From Tepidanaerobacter acetatoxydans Re1 (GTDB lineage: Bacteria; Bacillota; Thermosediminibacteria; Thermosediminibacterales; Tepidanaerobacteraceae): a DNA stretch of 64,000 nucleotides. The notes under the pieces were generated by a model. It worked only from the letters and a program-made list of their open reading frames with translations. It did no database searches and had not been told where the DNA came from. Each line of letters opens with the position of its first letter. The stretch's first letter is position 1. The position numbers and the translations under genes are program-made. This document shows positions 20,026 to 37,265 of this stretch, piece after piece. The stretch lies in NCBI RefSeq assembly GCF_000328765.2, contig NC_019954.2, positions 2,691,780-2,755,779 on the forward strand. Direction: 5' to 3'.

Positions 20026-20145
20026 GATCTTATCCAGAGTAGCTGAGGGACGGGCCCTATGACGCTCGACAACCGGCATTTTCCATTAGAATGCATCGGT
20101 GTCAATTCCTGCAGGATAATTAATTTTATCCTGGAAGATAAGATT
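20026..20145 (+). ncRNA. SAM-I (S-box) riboswitch aptamer
   Basis: Conserved S-box elements occur in order: CTTATCCAGAG, the kink-turn segment GAGGGACGGGCCC then TATGACGCTCGACAACC, and GGTGTCAATTCCTGC. The P1 helix pairs ATCTTATC (20027-20034) with GATAAGAT (about 20137-20144). A terminator follows at 20180. Binding of S-adenosylmethionine stabilises P1 and permits termination, so the downstream homocysteine/methionine operon is expressed when SAM is low. Confidence 0.92.
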
Positions 20146-27986: not shown

Positions 27987-29102
27987 TTACGCAGTTATCT
28001 TTGATGGCACAATTGTCTTTGTGATCACACTTCTATCCCGCATTATCTCTATATCTACTTGCTTCCCCACACCCAAACCGTACATTACTTGCCGAAGTTT
28101 TGCCATTGAACCTACTTTTTTGCCGGCGAGCTTTGTAATGACATCACCTTTTCTAATACCAGCCACATCGGCAGGACTACCCTCCTTTACCCCCGTTACA
28201 TATATACCGCTATCTACCGTCAATTTTATATTCATAGCTTGAGCTATCTCACGATCGATACCTTCAATACCTAGATAAGGTTTATCAAACCTGCCTTTTT
28301 CTATTATGCTGTTTACTATAGGCCGTGCCATATTGATGGGTATGGAGAATCCTATGGCCTCAGCTTGAGAAGCTTTAACGGTATTTATACCAATTATTTC
28401 CCCATGACTATTTACCAAAGGACCACCGCTATTGCCCGGATTTATTGAGGCATCTGTTTGAATTAAGTCTTGCATCAATACTTCACCCCTGCCATCTCTA
28501 ACTACAACCGTACGATTTAAAGCACTTATGATGCCTGCCGTAACAGTCCTCTGAAGGGCAAGTCCCAAAGGGTTCCCAATGGCTACCGCCAAATCTCCTA
28601 CCACAACCTTGTCAGAATCTCCCAGTTTAGCAACTGTCAAATCAGGTGCGGATATTTTTATTACGGAAAGGTCCAGTGCAGAGTCGCTATAGAGCCTGTG
28701 GGCTTTGTACTTCCTGCCATCTGAAAGAAACACCGTGATTTGGTCGGCATTGCCCACCACATGGTCATTAGTAATTATATAGCCCGACTCATTTACTATG
28801 ATACCGGAGCCTACCGCTTCCGTTTCCACCGGCCTGTAAAAAAAGTCATACTCTACGCGAACCGTAGATATACCTACTACGGCAGGTGTCACTTCTCGTG
28901 CTATGACCGGAATGGCCGCTTCCTGAACCTGTGCAATTTCAGAAGTTTCCGATTTTTGTTCAGGTCTTGACTGCTGATTGCCATAAATGATAGATGTTGT
29001 AATAAAAGTAGCTGCCAGTGCTCCAATAAGGGAGCTCAAGACAGCTACTGCCAGTATCTTCTTAATATCCAACCGGGGCCACCTGTTATTGTGCTTTTCC
29101 AT
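27987..29102 (-). CDS. HtrA/DegP-type serine protease
   Basis: A 371-residue membrane-anchored protease. There is one hydrophobic anchor at about 15-37, then a trypsin-like domain with the triad H (ITNDHVVG), D (SALDLSVI) and S (GNSGGPL), and a C-terminal PDZ domain from about 275 (DSGIYVTGVKEGSPADVAGIRKGD). It degrades or refolds misfolded extracytoplasmic proteins. In Bacillus the orthologous yyxA closes the walRK-yycHI operon, and the same neighbourhood is seen here with a ferredoxin-type gene inserted between. GCAGGTATG precedes the ATG. Confidence 0.93.
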   Translation of the reverse strand: MEKHNNRWPRLDIKKILAVAVLSSLIGALAATFITTSIIYGNQQSRPEQKSETSEIAQVQEAAIPVIAREVTPAVVGISTVRVEYDFFYRPVETEAVGSGIIVNESGYIITNDHVVGNADQITVFLSDGRKYKAHRLYSDSALDLSVIKISAPDLTVAKLGDSDKVVVGDLAVAIGNPLGLALQRTVTAGIISALNRTVVVRDGRGEVLMQDLIQTDASINPGNSGGPLVNSHGEIIGINTVKASQAEAIGFSIPINMARPIVNSIIEKGRFDKPYLGIEGIDREIAQAMNIKLTVDSGIYVTGVKEGSPADVAGIRKGDVITKLAGKKVGSMAKLRQVMYGLGVGKQVDIEIMRDRSVITKTIVPSKITA

Positions 29103-30294: not shown

Positions 30295-30519
30295 TGTAAA
30301 CCTCCTGCTTGAAATTATATATTTTTTATATATTTTTACAAAAAAACCGCGCCTAATATGTAAGTTGATTAGAATTGGGATTTCTTAAACCGCTTTAGCT
30401 AATTACTAAAAATCCATCCTGCTATTAGCTGTGATTACTAAGGGAAATACTATTATAATTCCACAAAACATCCTCCAATCCTTCTTTATGTATTTTATCG
30501 ACATTATTTTAGTATTTTC

Positions 30520-30657: not shown

Positions 30658-31509
30658 TCATTGTTCCATTTCGCCTGTATAAGCATTTACATAATAAATA
30701 TCACCATCATTTAGCTCTATTTTCCACACCGGAGCCACCTGCCAGCGATTAGCATCATAAAGTTTAGAATAATAGCCCTGCTGAACTCGAGTTATTGATA
30801 TTTGATTTTCAGCCTGAACCTCGTTAATAACCCTCATAATAGCTGTGAGAGGAGAAATAACACCTCGTTTTTTACCTACATAGCCTAAAGGCTTGAGCCA
30901 ACACTGATAATAGGTTTTAATGCCTGAGGGTGTAACAAGCATTGTTACGTAGCTGTTATCTATGAAAAAATTGTCGTGGTAGCGCACATACTCTAATAGG
31001 TAACCTTGGCTTTTATCGTCATAGGTAACCTTGTCCAATACCGCATTTGCCGGCATATTGCCATGATTTTTAATAAAATTTGCTGCCTCATTTTCTGCTT
31101 GTTCTTTTGTAAGATTTGGCCATATTATTTGGTCCTCATTATTGAAATAAGTAATAAATCCGTTATCCGTAATTATAAGTTGCTGCTTTTCAAAAGTATA
31201 CATTCTCCCGTCTTGAGTCTTGTTAACTTGTGGCAGTGCTTTTTTTCCAAAAAAACTTTCTAAAGCCTTTTTTTCATCTACTTTTTGAAAACTCACTTCT
31301 AGCAAAGACTGAGGCCTTCCCTCTTTTAAATCATCTACCTTTAATATAACGCCTCTTTCCATTAAATACTGTTTGATTTCCGACTGCTGGCCTGAAGTAA
31401 GTTCAAATTCAGCCATGGGCTTTTCTTTAAACCATAAGTTAAATACCAAAAATATGTTAAGTAATATAAATGATACGACAAGAATAGTAATCGCTTTTTT
31501 CCATTCCAA
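30658..31509 (-). CDS. yycI: WalRK regulatory protein YycI
   Basis: A 283-residue membrane-anchored protein with a single N-terminal span (AITILVVSFILLNIFLVFNLW) and an extracytoplasmic YycI-type domain. The C-terminal repeat of strands ends VAPVWKIELNDGDIYYVNAYTGEM. With YycH it binds WalK across the membrane and tunes its activity. The TTG at 31507-31509 has GGAGTG correctly placed and starts the protein at LEWKK, as in the family. The frame runs 20 codons further into the yycH end. Five bases separate it from the yycH stop. Confidence 0.85.
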   Translation of the reverse strand: MEWKKAITILVVSFILLNIFLVFNLWFKEKPMAEFELTSGQQSEIKQYLMERGVILKVDDLKEGRPQSLLEVSFQKVDEKKALESFFGKKALPQVNKTQDGRMYTFEKQQLIITDNGFITYFNNEDQIIWPNLTKEQAENEAANFIKNHGNMPANAVLDKVTYDDKSQGYLLEYVRYHDNFFIDNSYVTMLVTPSGIKTYYQCWLKPLGYVGKKRGVISPLTAIMRVINEVQAENQISITRVQQGYYSKLYDANRWQVAPVWKIELNDGDIYYVNAYTGEMEQ

Positions 31510-31514
31510 AAATA

Positions 31515-32789
31515 TCACTCCGAAAGGTCCTGTATGATTACTTCCATATCTGCTGTTTTGATAACCCATACAGGTTTTAGCTTTTCTCCCTCAATCATGT
31601 ATCCGGGATATATATCATTTACAGTCTTTATATTTTTAGTGGATACTGCAGCATTTAATGCTTCCACAGGCGTCATAAGATCCCTGATTCCTTCTTGCTT
31701 TATGGACCAAGCTACATCTCTATAATAATTTTTTACCTGGTTTCCTTCAACAGCTATTACAATATAATCATCTGAATTTACAATCCTAAAGCCATTAACT
31801 CTGATTTTGAATCTAAAAATATACGTCATTGAACCCTGTGATTCGCTTTTAGCTTCATATGAAGCTAGGTAACCACCTTCTGGCCACCCGCCGTGTGAAG
31901 CCACAAAATCTATTGCTGTTTTAAAAGCCTCATAAAGATTTTGAGTTTTACGCTGTTCTTGAGTAACGGGAAAATTATATTCAATTGATCCGTCATCATA
32001 AATCCTAAGGCCCTGCTGACCATCGGTATATATTATAGTGCCGTCTCTTTCTTCAATTCTACGTGTCACAGAAAAGTCCATGAAAAATTCAGACGCCACT
32101 TGTTCTTCCAAAATCGTTTCCTTTTTTAAAGAATACATAGGAAGCTCATACGGCAACAGCGAAACATATACATCGCCATTTACCTTGAGATTTACATCTG
32201 CCGTAAGGCTGGCAAACATGGGAGGACTCGAATCACTTATTTCCTTGATAAGGCCGGTAAATTCAGAATCACTGCCACCTTTGCCTACTTTATAATAGCT
32301 TCCGTCACTGTCCGTCAAATAACATAAAAGCTCGCCATCGCTAACCAGTATAAATGAACGGATTAACTTCCCGTCTATTATCGATGTATCACCCGCACTA
32401 ATATCAAAAAGTTGCTTTATGAAGGACGGCGGCAAAGGCGTAGGAAAGAAAACCTCCAAGCCTTTTTTATGCGTAAAATACTCTTGCTTTATATTAGTCA
32501 TTGGCTCCGGACTTATAGTCCATTGCGAAGCCAAAAGGTTTTTAGAAATTGCCCAGGTCTTATCGTACAAGGGCGATGAGGGTTTTAAAACGGTGTTAAA
32601 AGAATTGCCTAAATAAACCAGAATTTTTTCGGGACTGACGGCGCTAATCGGATCTACGTTTTTTTCATCCTGCACCGTTCTTGCAGTTCCCAGATGCCCG
32701 GGAACCCTAGACCAGATGTTAAATGAAAGAAAAAGGCTGATGGCCACTAGCAGGATAAGAGTCCAGCCCAGGATAAAATCCCTTGACAA
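31515..32789 (-). CDS. yycH: WalRK regulatory protein YycH
   Basis: About 424 residues, one N-terminal anchor (FILGWTLILLVAISLFLSFN) and a long extracytoplasmic region with the three-domain YycH layout. Central ERDGTIIYTDGQQGLRIYDDGSIEYNF-like strands are visible. Partner of YycI and regulator of WalK. The start is taken as the TTG at 32787-32789, six bases after AGGCGGTG. A GTG three codons upstream overlaps that site. The order walR, walK, secreted protein, yycH, yycI departs from Bacillus by one extra gene. Confidence 0.85.
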   Translation of the reverse strand: MSRDFILGWTLILLVAISLFLSFNIWSRVPGHLGTARTVQDEKNVDPISAVSPEKILVYLGNSFNTVLKPSSPLYDKTWAISKNLLASQWTISPEPMTNIKQEYFTHKKGLEVFFPTPLPPSFIKQLFDISAGDTSIIDGKLIRSFILVSDGELLCYLTDSDGSYYKVGKGGSDSEFTGLIKEISDSSPPMFASLTADVNLKVNGDVYVSLLPYELPMYSLKKETILEEQVASEFFMDFSVTRRIEERDGTIIYTDGQQGLRIYDDGSIEYNFPVTQEQRKTQNLYEAFKTAIDFVASHGGWPEGGYLASYEAKSESQGSMTYIFRFKIRVNGFRIVNSDDYIVIAVEGNQVKNYYRDVAWSIKQEGIRDLMTPVEALNAAVSTKNIKTVNDIYPGYMIEGEKLKPVWVIKTADMEVIIQDLSE

Positions 32790-32804
32790 TGGCAACACCG
32801 CCTT

Positions 32805-33218
32805 TTATTTAAGGATGAGAAATGACTTGAGAGTCTGTATTAGGGACCCAAGTTCCGGCAGTTCTGATCCGCTTTCAAGTTGATATACCTTGCGTGAAAC
32901 CGTTTCGTCTTCTCCTGACGGGAATGAGGCTTTTACGGTAATAATATTTTCTTTGGAAGAAATAGGTGCTTGTGTTACAAAAATACCTGCTGCTCCTACC
33001 GAAAGTTCCTTTTCCTCCTTGCGCCCGTTTATGAGCACGATGACCTTGGAATTTGGCACGGTTTCACCGGAAATTAAGACTTTGTCTGCGGATGTCATAT
33101 AGTTATCCTTAGGTTCAGTTAACTTTATAAAATTTTTAACTTCATCGGCTTTAGCCGAGGGAGAAAAAAGTATTAAGATAGCTAAAAACATTGCCAACAC
33201 TGTTGCGGTTTTTTTCAT
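32805..33218 (-). CDS. Secreted Ig-like/bacterial-adhesion-type small protein
   Basis: A 137-residue protein with a signal peptide (KKTATVLAMFLAILILFSPSAKA, cleavage after residue 22 or so). One beta-rich domain follows, resembling a carbohydrate-binding or Ig-like fold (KLTEPKDNYMTSADKVLISGETVPNSKVIVLING). It lies between walK and yycH in the same direction, so it likely takes part in wall sensing or wall metabolism. GGGAG precedes the ATG at 33216-33218. Its upstream region has a perfect WalR box and a seven-copy tetranucleotide repeat. No precise function can be given. Confidence 0.75.
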   Translation of the reverse strand: MKKTATVLAMFLAILILFSPSAKADEVKNFIKLTEPKDNYMTSADKVLISGETVPNSKVIVLINGRKEEKELSVGAAGIFVTQAPISSKENIITVKASFPSGEDETVSRKVYQLESGSELPELGSLIQTLKSFLILK

Positions 33219-33273
33219 GCCAATCTCCCTTTCTGGAATAAAAAACAAAAATATACCGGTCTTGCTTTCCCTA

Positions 33274-33301
33274 ATCTATCTATCTATCTATCTATCTATC
33301 T
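33274..33301. repeat. Seven tandem ATCT copies
   Basis: Perfect tetranucleotide repeat, 7 x ATCT (28 bases), between a WalR box and the ribosome site of the secreted-protein gene, 56-83 bases before its ATG. Such tracts change length by slippage. Here a change would alter promoter or leader spacing, not a reading frame. Confidence 0.95.
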
Positions 33302-33320
33302 TATAGTTTAAATGACCAAC

Positions 33321-33337
33321 ATTACAGAATTATTACA
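33321..33337 (-). promoter_or_regulatory. WalR box upstream of secreted-protein/yycHI unit
   Basis: On the minus strand TGTAAT-AATTC-TGTAAT, a perfect match to the WalR consensus TGTWAH-N5-TGTWAH. It lies about 105 bases before the ATG at 33218. A TATAAG candidate -10 lies about 15 bases downstream. Confidence 0.75.
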
Positions 33338-33364
33338 GACCGATTAAAAATAAGTTACATTTAC

Positions 33365-35137
33365 TTAATTAGTGCTTACCAGCTGGCCTGATATGGCCGG
33401 AATTTGTATGATTACACTTGTGCCCTTACCAAGCTCACTACTTATGCTAATTTCACCGCCATGTGCTTGCACTATCTCCCTTGCAATTGAAAGGCCCAAG
33501 CCTGTTCCACCCATTTCCCTGGATCTGGTCTTATCCACTCTATAAAACCTTTCAAAAATTCGGGGAAGGTCTTCTTTTGGTATACCAACACCCGTATCTT
33601 TAAAGGTTACTTTTACCATTTTTTCAGCATATTCAACATCAATATATATTTTACCACCTTCCGGGGTATATTTATAAGCATTGCTCAAGATATTTTGAAA
33701 GACTTGCTCAACTTTATCATTATCTGCAAAAACTTCCGGCAATTCTTCCGGTATATTGGCCTTTATCGTCTGGCCTTTTCTTTTGATATTTACATCCATT
33801 TTTGTGATGACGTTTTTCAGTATGGTTCCGATATCTATCGGTTTCATATCCCACTTTGTTTCTTTATTGTCAAGGCGTGAAAGCTCCAATAAATCGCTTA
33901 CTAAGCGCGTCATCCGGTCGGCTTCATCATTTATAACGCTCGTAAACTGCCGCGATATCTCAGCTTCTTCCAATGCCCCATCAAGAAGGGTTTCAGCATA
34001 GCTCTTAATGGTAGTAAGAGGCGTCCTAAGCTCGTGTGATACATTAGCCACAAATTCCTTGCGCATAGCTTCAAGTCGATGCTGTTTTGTTATATCTTGA
34101 AACACAAAGATATGCCCTACAATTCGGTTTTCTCGTCTTAACGGAGCATAGATGGATTTTAATATGGCATCCTTGGTTTTAATAAGAGTTTCACTATTGT
34201 CAAAATCATTATTTAAAAGCTGTTTCATATCAATATTTAACAACTTATTAAGTTCCAAAGAAAAATTTTGACCGTTGATGCCTTCCTCCAGCGACAGCAT
34301 CTGCCTTGCAACAGGGTTTATGTGTATTACTTGCCCTTCATCATTTAAGGCAATGACGCCATCGGCCATATTTATAAGGATTGCCTCCATTTTTTCTTTC
34401 TCATCGGATATCTCTTCCATGGTTTCCTTAAGGCGAGTAGTTAGGAAGTTGAACATGTTCGTCAGCTTTCCTATTTCATCGTCGGATTTGACCTCAATAT
34501 GCTGGTCAAAATCTCCCTGGGCCAGTGAAGCAGCTCTTTTGGTAACTTCTTGAATAGGACCTGTTATGGTCTTTGACAGGGCAAATCCCACTAATCCTGT
34601 TACTGCAAGGCTTAACAGCGTAGCCGTAAGCAATATGGTTTTTGTGTTGGCAATAGTATCATATATGCTTTTCATAGATGAAATAAGATAAATAATACCT
34701 ACTACCGTATCACCGCTTTTCACCGGATACGCACAGTACATATAAGGGATTTTACTTTTTGGATCAACTCGCATATCCTTTGACGGAGTTCCGAAAGAAG
34801 CCTGTGTTATTTCAGGAGTCAGGAGTCTGGTATTCTTTTGAAATCTCGTATCATCAGTAGATGTTATGATACTTGCAGAGCCGTCAAGAATAGCAATACC
34901 CATCTCTTGGCCAAACCCTTTAATAACATCGCTTATATCTTGCGGCTGAGGAACTGGAATCAAGTGTCTTTCAATATAGCCGGAAATTAGCTGTGCTTTA
35001 CCATCAAGGGTATTGGCAAGAGTATCTATATGATATTTCTCCAAAGACTGAACCATGAAAATTCCAACTACCTCCATGGCCAGTAGTATCAGCATAATGT
35101 ATATAACGACCAGCTTCCACTGGATGCTCTTGAACAT
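33365..35137 (-). CDS. walK: Cell-wall sensor histidine kinase WalK
   Basis: A 590-residue kinase. TM1 at about 7-29, an extracellular sensor to about 165, TM2 at about 166-188, HAMP at 190-240, PAS at about 250-350, HisKA with FVANVSHELRTPLTTIKSY, and an ATPase domain with NAYKYTPEGG, DTGVGIP and GTGLGLSI. It phosphorylates WalR and controls peptidoglycan hydrolases and cell-wall turnover. It follows walR by ten bases. TAGGTGG precedes the ATG. Confidence 0.96.
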   Translation of the reverse strand: MFKSIQWKLVVIYIMLILLAMEVVGIFMVQSLEKYHIDTLANTLDGKAQLISGYIERHLIPVPQPQDISDVIKGFGQEMGIAILDGSASIITSTDDTRFQKNTRLLTPEITQASFGTPSKDMRVDPKSKIPYMYCAYPVKSGDTVVGIIYLISSMKSIYDTIANTKTILLTATLLSLAVTGLVGFALSKTITGPIQEVTKRAASLAQGDFDQHIEVKSDDEIGKLTNMFNFLTTRLKETMEEISDEKEKMEAILINMADGVIALNDEGQVIHINPVARQMLSLEEGINGQNFSLELNKLLNIDMKQLLNNDFDNSETLIKTKDAILKSIYAPLRRENRIVGHIFVFQDITKQHRLEAMRKEFVANVSHELRTPLTTIKSYAETLLDGALEEAEISRQFTSVINDEADRMTRLVSDLLELSRLDNKETKWDMKPIDIGTILKNVITKMDVNIKRKGQTIKANIPEELPEVFADNDKVEQVFQNILSNAYKYTPEGGKIYIDVEYAEKMVKVTFKDTGVGIPKEDLPRIFERFYRVDKTRSREMGGTGLGLSIAREIVQAHGGEISISSELGKGTSVIIQIPAISGQLVSTN

Positions 35138-35147
35138 TCAGCACCAC

Positions 35148-35837
35148 CTATTGCTTCCTAAAGTAGTAACCCACACCTCGTTTAGTAATAATATATGTCG
35201 GGTTGGCAGGATCGTCTTCCACCTTTTCCCGAAGGCGCCGCACAGTTACATCTACAGTGCGTATATCCCCATAATACTCATAACCCCACACTTCCTCTAA
35301 AAGTTTTTCGCGGGTGAAAACCTGTCCGGCCTGAGTAGAAAGATATTTAATTAATTCATACTCGCGAAAAGTAAGATCAAGGGGTTTCCCCCTTTTTCTT
35401 ACTACATAACTTTTTAAATCGAGCTCTAAATCTCCCAGTCTGATAATTTCTTCTTCGCCGCCGGGCTCAGAAAGAGCAATTCTTCTCAAATTGGCTTTTA
35501 CTCGAGCCATAAGCTCTCTCATGCTGAAGGGTTTTGTAATATAATCATCTGCACCAAGCTCTAAGCCTAAAACCTTGTCTACTTCCTCGCCTCTGGCCGT
35601 CAGCATGATTATCGGACTAGTTATTTTTTCCCTAAGTTTCTTGCATACTGAAAAACCGTCCTGCTTAGGCAGCATAATGTCCAATAGTATTAAGTCTGGA
35701 TCTTCTTTAAGGGCAATGTTTATAGCCTCATCACCATCATAAGCCGCCAAAACATTATACCCCTCTTTAGAAAGGTTGTATCTTAAAATGTCTACAATGG
35801 GTTTTTCATCATCAACCACTAAAATCTTCTCATTCAA
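35148..35837 (-). CDS. walR: Response regulator WalR
   Basis: A 229-residue OmpR-type regulator. The receiver has phosphoacceptor D in [13 protein letters not shown], switch residues MLTARG and YITKPF; the winged-helix domain has [18 protein letters not shown] and the C-terminal [10 protein letters not shown]. Essential in many Firmicutes. The start is moved to the TTG at 35835-35837, which has GGGGGTG at good spacing and gives [11 protein letters not shown]; the ATG five codons upstream lies within that site. Two perfect WalR boxes occur in the window. Confidence 0.95.
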
Positions 35838-35877
35838 AAACAGCACCCCCATTACTAACTACATTCGCCATAATTCG

Positions 35878-36651
35878 TTATTTTCCTCCTGTATCAAATT
35901 GAGCAACCTTTCGAAGGAAAATACCCTCTGCCGAATCACCGTCTTTAAGGTACAGCATTATTCTTTTAAGCTCATCAATGCCACCGCTGCCGGAAAGAAA
36001 TTCAGTCATCTCAAGCGCACCCAAGTATGCCTTAGGTACATTTGAGAGTTTATCAAAACTATACATGATATCCTCATAAGCATAGTCAAAGCTCTTATCT
36101 ATTTCAAAATCCTCTTCAAGTGTATAACCTGTTACCCGTTTTTCTTCATACTGAGCCACTCCCTCTGTAAACCAGCGGGGACAGTTGCCTTTAGTCATAA
36201 TATCTACCACAAAATGAGTATATTCATGAACCATGGGGCCTTTATCAAAGAATACCTTCTCCATATCCTGAGTTTCTTCAATCCACCCATCCGGCGACTG
36301 AACATAGATAACACCTCTATAGTAAACCCCTTGAGTATTTTCATCTTTTGGCCAATTGAAAGCGGATTGAAGGCTTAAGCCGTCCGGGAAGACCACAATG
36401 GGCAGCTTATTTTTCGGATAAAAATCAAAGTCTTTCCCCACAAGGTCATAGGCTCTCTCAGCCGCATTTACAACAGCCGGTATGCTATCCTTGCTTTCAG
36501 GCTTAAAAAGTATAATAAAATGTGATGTTGCCACAGAATCAAAACCCTTTAATTTAAATGTGACAACAGATATTGGCGCATAAAAATAATAAACTCCTAT
36601 AATAATTATAACACATAGGAGCGCAATTGCAGTAAGCTTTTTTCTCAGCAT
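35878..36651 (-). CDS. Membrane-anchored peptidase MA family (gluzincin) protein
   Basis: A 257-residue protein with an N-terminal anchor (about 6-27). A zinc peptidase domain has HEYTH at about 141-145 with the third ligand in WFTEGVAQYEE. The peptidase MA-like superfamily includes thermolysin-type gluzincins. It lies upstream of walR on the same strand, 40 bases away, so it is probably the first gene of the wal transcription unit. A WalR box and -10 lie 240-290 bases upstream. Substrate unknown; a wall or secreted protein is likely. Confidence 0.8.
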   Translation of the reverse strand: MLRKKLTAIALLCVIIIIGVYYFYAPISVVTFKLKGFDSVATSHFIILFKPESKDSIPAVVNAAERAYDLVGKDFDFYPKNKLPIVVFPDGLSLQSAFNWPKDENTQGVYYRGVIYVQSPDGWIEETQDMEKVFFDKGPMVHEYTHFVVDIMTKGNCPRWFTEGVAQYEEKRVTGYTLEEDFEIDKSFDYAYEDIMYSFDKLSNVPKAYLGALEMTEFLSGSGGIDELKRIMLYLKDGDSAEGIFLRKVAQFDTGGK

Positions 36652-36817
36652 CGTCTTCCCCTCCCCCCTATCATTATATTAGAGTTCGACAAAAATTTCA
36701 CTGGAAATCATATTCACTGCCACTGTTATTTACCAGATTACATTCATAAAAAAATAAAAAATCAGATTTTTTAAGGCAGAACTGCGTTGTTTTAGACAAG
36801 TAAAATCTGCGGCATAA

Positions 36818-36843
36818 GAAAAAAAGCGGCTATTTGCCGCATT
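36818..36843 (-). terminator. Terminator-like hairpin in the wal leader
   Basis: GCGGC-AAATA-GCCGC followed by seven T on the minus strand, 175 bases before the peptidase start and about 45 bases after a -10 element. No gene lies upstream on this strand until 38,880. It may be an attenuator or the end of a short RNA. Confidence 0.55.
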
Positions 36844-36888
36844 TTAAAAAGGGGGGATCGTTTTGTTGTTGCTGACTGCTTAATTCTT

Positions 36889-36943
36889 ATTATAAATGAT
36901 TATTATTAAGGAATTGTTTCATTTATATTACAATCATGTTACA
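36889..36943 (-). promoter_or_regulatory. WalR box and -10 element ahead of wal operon
   Basis: On the minus strand TGTAAC-ATGAT-TGTAAT (36927-36943) matches the WalR consensus fully. TATAAT (36889-36894) lies 32 bases further on, with a poor -35 between, as expected for an activated promoter. The remainder of 36,652-37,265 shows no gene. Confidence 0.65.
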
Positions 36944-37265
36944 AATTATTGGTTTTATCGACAAATGGCAGCTTTGTTTTAGATTGAAATTACCTTTTAT
37001 GATACAGGCGTTTTTTATGCATGTCAGTTTTGCATTTTTTAGATTTTTCACCAGGAATTCAATGTCAGGTACACAAAAATATTTTTTAAAAATTCCTTCT
37101 CTTAAGACTGAATTATATGAATAGTTATCCCGGTCAATACCATCCGAATTCCCGTAAATATAATTATGAGTTTTACAAAACTGACCTTCTTCTGCGATTA
37201 TTTGCTACGTTTGCCCATCGCTGGGTGTATAGTCGGATTTTTTTATGAATATTTATGCATATATC

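Follow-up and report, generated by a model that had tools for sequence, protein, structure and literature searches.

In activation by regulators of the PhoB/OmpR family, the regulator's box replaces the −35 element of the promoter and ends 10 bp from the −10 element. For WalR (YycF), the box TGTWAH-N5-TGTWAH is known from B. subtilis and was used for C. difficile (PMC9210968). It was refined in S. aureus, where, as described in PMC10746227, activation goes with sites upstream of −35 and repression with sites that fall between −35 and −10 or further downstream. The wal operons studied in other bacteria were, according to PMC9210968, not autoregulated. Tetranucleotide repeats are ranked by mutability in Table 1 of PMC4235727, where runs of 3–9 TAAA or 3–12 AGTC units make up a ‘mutable’ class that changes at 1e-7 to 1e-5 per division, and a hypermutable class above it (more than 9 TAAA or more than 10 AGTC units) is linked to phase variation.

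The locus described here lies in a 64,000-nucleotide stretch of the Tepidanaerobacter acetatoxydans genome (the window), in which the gap between walK and the gene of a 137 amino acid protein houses a tract of ATCT repeats next to a WalR-type array. Like the B. subtilis WalR box, the array consists of hexamers repeated directly at 5-bp spacing, its cognate WalR is encoded in the same operon and its target is envelope-related; unlike that two-hexamer box, it has four in-phase hexamers, and its place is within the wal operon, after walK and before a gene of the yycH type. It resembles PhoB/OmpR-family activation in its 11-bp period, its 10-bp spacing to the −10 and its want of a clear −35, although the regulator, the sequence and the kind of evidence differ. 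The tract, for its part, is like the ‘mutable’ repeats of PMC4235727 in having a perfect four-base unit, a copy number within 3–9 to 3–12 and an apparent origin from a short precursor that was lengthened by insertion bias and not through selection for mutability, with the difference that the rates in Table 1 of that source come from other species and units. Quite likely, a conserved and putatively WalR-controlled promoter lies within the wal operon, and the tract in its leader is a microsatellite of recent origin that is largely neutral; of the two, the promoter is the finding of greater use.

Genes around the Tract

On the minus strand, the genes follow one another in the order Peptidase_MA-like gene, walR, walK, the 137 amino acid secreted-protein gene, yycH, yycI, a 382 amino acid protein gene and htrA (Table 1). 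The WalR product exceeds its NCBIfam cut-off, and HK_WalK is the best match of the adjacent kinase, yet below the equivalog cut-off. The 137 amino acid protein begins at an ATG at 33218 with a signal peptide that is recognizable by eye, MKKTATVLAMFLAILILFSPSAKA. Its sole Pfam match, to Glucodextran_B, is borderline at 27.1 bits against a cut-off of 27, and no NCBIfam family was matched, so that of the “secreted wall protein” named in a preliminary description of this DNA the secretion was kept and the wall was not.

Relatives of this protein were found in 22 of the 41 genomes searched (its own included), all from two families of one order; a family search gave 13 of 13, and 19 more distant genomes gave none. 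The order walK, 137 amino acid protein gene, yycH is kept in all 20 relatives that were fetched with flanks. Among these, walR was seen in 18, the other two contigs beginning inside walK, and yycI in 19, the remaining stretch ending before that gene.

Table 1. Features of the region from yycI to walR, in window coordinates.
Feature	Position	Strand	Basis
yycI homologue	30658–31569	−	PF09648
yycH homologue	31515–32798	−	PF07435
137 amino acid protein, signal peptide (by eye), borderline Glucodextran_B	32805–33218	−	Pfam and conserved context
Ribosome-binding site AAAGGGAGAT	33223–33232	−	core kept in an alignment of leaders from the 8 nearest loci
(AGAT)7 microsatellite, (ATCT)7 on the plus strand, at the start of the predicted 5′ leader	33274–33301	−	repeat calls
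Predicted −10 element TAAACT	33305–33310	−	TAnnnT at identical offset in 22/22 orthologous loci
WalR-type box TGTAATAATTCTGTAAT, array hexamers 3 and 4	33321–33337	−	match to TGTWAH-N5-TGTWAH
Array hexamers 1 and 2 (TGTAAC, TTTAAT), continuing the 11-bp period	33343–33359	−	orthologue comparison
walK-like histidine kinase	33365–35137	−	best NCBIfam match HK_WalK, 587 bits, under the cut-off of 725
walR/yycF response regulator	35148–35852	−	NCBIfam resp_reg_YycF, 350.5 bits against a cut-off of 340

A Conserved, Putatively WalR-Controlled Promoter

A WalR box upstream of the tract had been claimed in the preliminary description and was confirmed, TGTAATAATTCTGTAAT being one of four matches to TGTWAH-N5-TGTWAH in the window, where 0.65 would be expected. 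The strict pattern recurs upstream of the gene in 19 of the 20 relatives with flanks; in the remaining one (L088), one of the hexamers reads CGTAAT. When the orthologous loci are compared, four hexamers with an 11-bp period (TGTAAx, xxTAAx, xGTAAy, TGTAAy) are present in all 22, the window included, and are followed in all 22, after 10 bp, by TAnnnT, mostly TAAACT, which occurs in at most five of the 22 at each other offset from 0 to 24; these loci share ancestry and are, therefore, not independent. The array of the window spans 33359 to 33321. The promoter pattern gave 27 matches in the 22 loci, and five out-of-register second matches, one hexamer upstream (L023–L026 and L029), were dropped. 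In second-family loci (e.g., L023–L027), hexamer 1 (TGTAAA) overlaps the walK stop codon, such that the array begins inside walK.

The hexamer TATAAG (33300–33305) was considered as the −10 element and set aside, as TAnnnT is found at that offset in 5 of the 22 loci versus 22 of 22 for TAAACT. It is kept as an alternative that overlaps the first two bases of the tract, and its use would leave the conclusion unchanged, because the first unit of the repeat stays at any copy number. Genome-wide, TGTAAY-N5-TGTAAY occurs eight times and the reversed pattern once. Four boxes in the genome have a −10-like hexamer within 6–14 bp, and the spacing is 10 bp in this promoter only, so the 10-bp geometry is not a general rule of the genome.

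These patterns indicate that a putative WalR-controlled promoter sits inside the wal operon, from which the genes for the secreted protein, YycH and YycI would be transcribed as an operon of their own. The four hexamers would lie on one face of the DNA, and phosphorylated WalR would probably activate RNA polymerase there. We infer both the binding of WalR and the direction of its control, and the sign of that control is uncertain because the array would overlap the −35. The wal system would in this way govern how much of its accessory proteins YycH and YycI is available, and a feedback loop that acts on these accessory proteins of WalK can be predicted from the conserved array in the interval from walK to yycHI. 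No published report of this promoter between walK and yycHI was found in a search of mainly open-access literature.

The Repeat Tract and Its Origin

The seven ATCT copies noted in the preliminary description are all perfect (AGAT on the coding strand), its distance of about 40 bases to the ribosome-binding site holds, and its placing of the tract about where transcription would begin was borne out, as three bases separate the tract from the predicted −10. By the usual 7-nt distance from the −10, transcription would start at about 33298, within the first repeat copies.

The length of the tract is far beyond chance. The one other perfect tetranucleotide run of at least three copies in the window is a single TAATx3, and a genome sample of 20 stretches of 20 kb (400 kb, or about 14% of the genome) has six runs of three copies and none longer. 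Order-3 Markov simulations of 64 kb reached four copies in 3 of 200 cases and five copies in 0 of 200. When the whole genome (2,761,252 bases in a single contig) was searched for at least five ATCT copies, the tract was the only place found, its signal of three overlapping 20-mers being equal to seven copies. Four ATCT copies in a row are absent from the two other members of the genus that were examined.

A close relative, Tepidanaerobacter sp. EBM-38, is 96.3–97.4% identical in four aligned blocks of a 10 kb region and has two perfect AGAT copies, together with decayed ones, at the tract site. Alignment of the two leaders leaves an 8-nt gap in the tract, which is exactly two units, and an extra 1-nt gap in a T run brings the net difference to 7 nt. 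A third member of the genus has one AGATAG-like stretch at the site, and more than two perfect copies of any tetranucleotide unit were found in none of the 21 relatives' leaders. The change in length that had been proposed is seen as a two-unit difference between T. acetatoxydans and EBM-38; the comparison is one between species, with one genome for each, and it fits slippage on an evolutionary scale. The simplest account is that replication slippage expanded the tract in this lineage from a short, AGATA-like precursor in the 5′ leader, with contraction in EBM-38 as a possible alternative origin of the difference, and the tract can probably change in length slowly. It is hardly credible that the count of seven is an error of sequencing or assembly: a single assembly of the species was compared and the tract of the relative is much shorter, as such an error would have it, but 28 bp is below ordinary read length, the genome is one complete contig and EBM-38 has a decayed form of the same repeat.

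Two other stretches differ between these genomes. Positions 28006–28993, about 987 bp with most of htrA (27987–29102), have no counterpart in the EBM-38 contig (L001), where the flanking blocks meet, perhaps through a true deletion, perhaps because the metagenome assembly is faulty. EBM-38 also lacks about 136 bp of the interval that separates yycI from the gene after it (30326–30463).

Effects of Length Changes on the Leader

The preliminary description had expected length changes to shift the geometry of promoter or leader, and had thought it possible that the expression of the secreted protein and yycHI would vary in a phase-like manner. The leader would indeed gain or lose 4 nt of unstructured RNA with each unit, and the promoter would not be shifted, as the tract lies wholly downstream of the hexamers, the spacer and the −10. 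Flanked by the −10 and the ribosome site, and overlapping neither the hexamers nor the spacer nor the coding frame, it is not placed where a change of one unit would act as a switch. Since the promoter, the first transcribed bases and the ribosome site would stay the same, length changes are expected to be nearly neutral. Translational switching by the tract was excluded, as (AGAT)n on the coding strand holds a TAG within 12 nt in every frame and the tract is upstream of the conserved start codon.

A contingency locus, in which frequent slippage would vary the leader length and cause phase-like expression of the secreted protein and yycHI, is on these grounds very unlikely, with the promoter core untouched and the reading frame unswitched. 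Seven perfect copies of a tetranucleotide within an envelope-operon leader, with a two-unit difference from the nearest relative, do recall the H. influenzae examples with five or more tetranucleotide repeats that are given in PMC4235727. By Table 1 of that source, whose rates come from elsewhere as noted above, seven copies nevertheless fall in the ‘mutable’ class, below the hypermutable range. There is no comparable tract in the leaders of the other 20 relatives, which have at most two copies, nor any ATCT run of this kind elsewhere in the genome. The genome also encodes a MutS above the family cut-off, which speaks against frequent slippage, although mismatch repair may be inefficient for loops of 4 nt. 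The phase-like variation accordingly found no support, and the tract serves as a caution against taking any promoter-near repeat for a phase switch.

Leader length was compared as the distance from the −10 to the ATG, which ranges from 33 to 86 nt among the 22 orthologous loci, the window having the longest. It is 33–42 nt in the second family, 56–65 nt in the rest of the first family, and 70 and 79 nt in the two other members of the genus, and it would be 58 nt here without the tract. This length looks free, because it varies so widely while the promoter is fixed. In leaders built in silico with 3 to 14 copies, the predicted unpaired fraction stays at 0.59–0.60 for the ribosome site and 0.39–0.43 for the ATG; with one and two copies it is 0.69 and 0.61 for the former and 0.24 and 0.38 for the latter.

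These values bear on the suggestion that the copy number is a slow quantitative tuner, whereby longer unstructured AGAU leaders would alter mRNA stability or ribosome loading and set the strength of a WalR–YycHI loop for each species. The window's leader owes its excess over all the others to the tract, and the genus as a whole has long leaders, as such a tuner would lead one to expect, but the predicted structure is unchanged between 3 and 14 copies and leader lengths range freely among the orthologues, which makes the suggestion an improbable one. A still bolder idea, and a long shot, joins the two parts of the locus: throughout the order, the four-hexamer promoter would work as a feedback valve with which WalR adjusts the amount of YycH and YycI, and in this species the AGAT tract would be a slow heritable dial on that valve, acting through leader-dependent mRNA stability or ribosome loading. 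With the tract read as a largely neutral microsatellite, the locus offers a clean example of microsatellite growth in a leader beside a fixed promoter.

A hairpin with a GGAA...TTCC stem beside the ribosome site, noticed by eye, was considered as a conserved leader structure and rejected, for RNAalifold on eight leaders returned no such stem; all that it gave was a helix of four pairs that lacked two-sided changes, from an alignment imperfect enough that a weak stem may have been missed. Folding of 13 leaders against shuffled sequences gave z values from −1.69 to +0.98. No Rfam family matched positions 33200–37100 at E ≤ 1, and at gathering thresholds the window has only three tRNAs and one SAM riboswitch, at 20027–20144 with 87.1 bits.

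A Small RNA-Like Element Upstream of the wal Operon

A 62-base element on the minus strand at 36819–36880, AGCAGTCAGCAACAACAAAACGATCCCCCC..., lies upstream of the wal operon; it ends in a hairpin and a T run and has the appearance of an undescribed small RNA gene. It had no Rfam match at E ≤ 1. Its 27-base core, with three mismatches allowed, was found in 3 of 299 genomes of the phylum, all of this family and all exact. A shorter core is present in all ten relatives of the family for which the stretch extends to this element (two contigs are too short), and the full element was displayed for nine of the ten; the eight second-family stretches gave only chance-like matches. Among 13 start regions examined in the window, the C-rich part of the element pairs best with the start of the first wal-operon gene, at −18.7 kcal/mol, and its pairing with the start of the secreted-protein gene comes to −13.6 kcal/mol, both values being given without a shuffled control.

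A second WalR-type box, at 36927–36943, is located upstream of both the whole wal operon and this element. It is conserved in 10 of the 12 family loci, which are all those whose stretch reaches it, and is absent from the eight second-family stretches, one of which (L084) has a different box further out. The box hints that either the small RNA-like element or the wal operon itself is under WalR control, and the element is a better lead than the ATCT tract.
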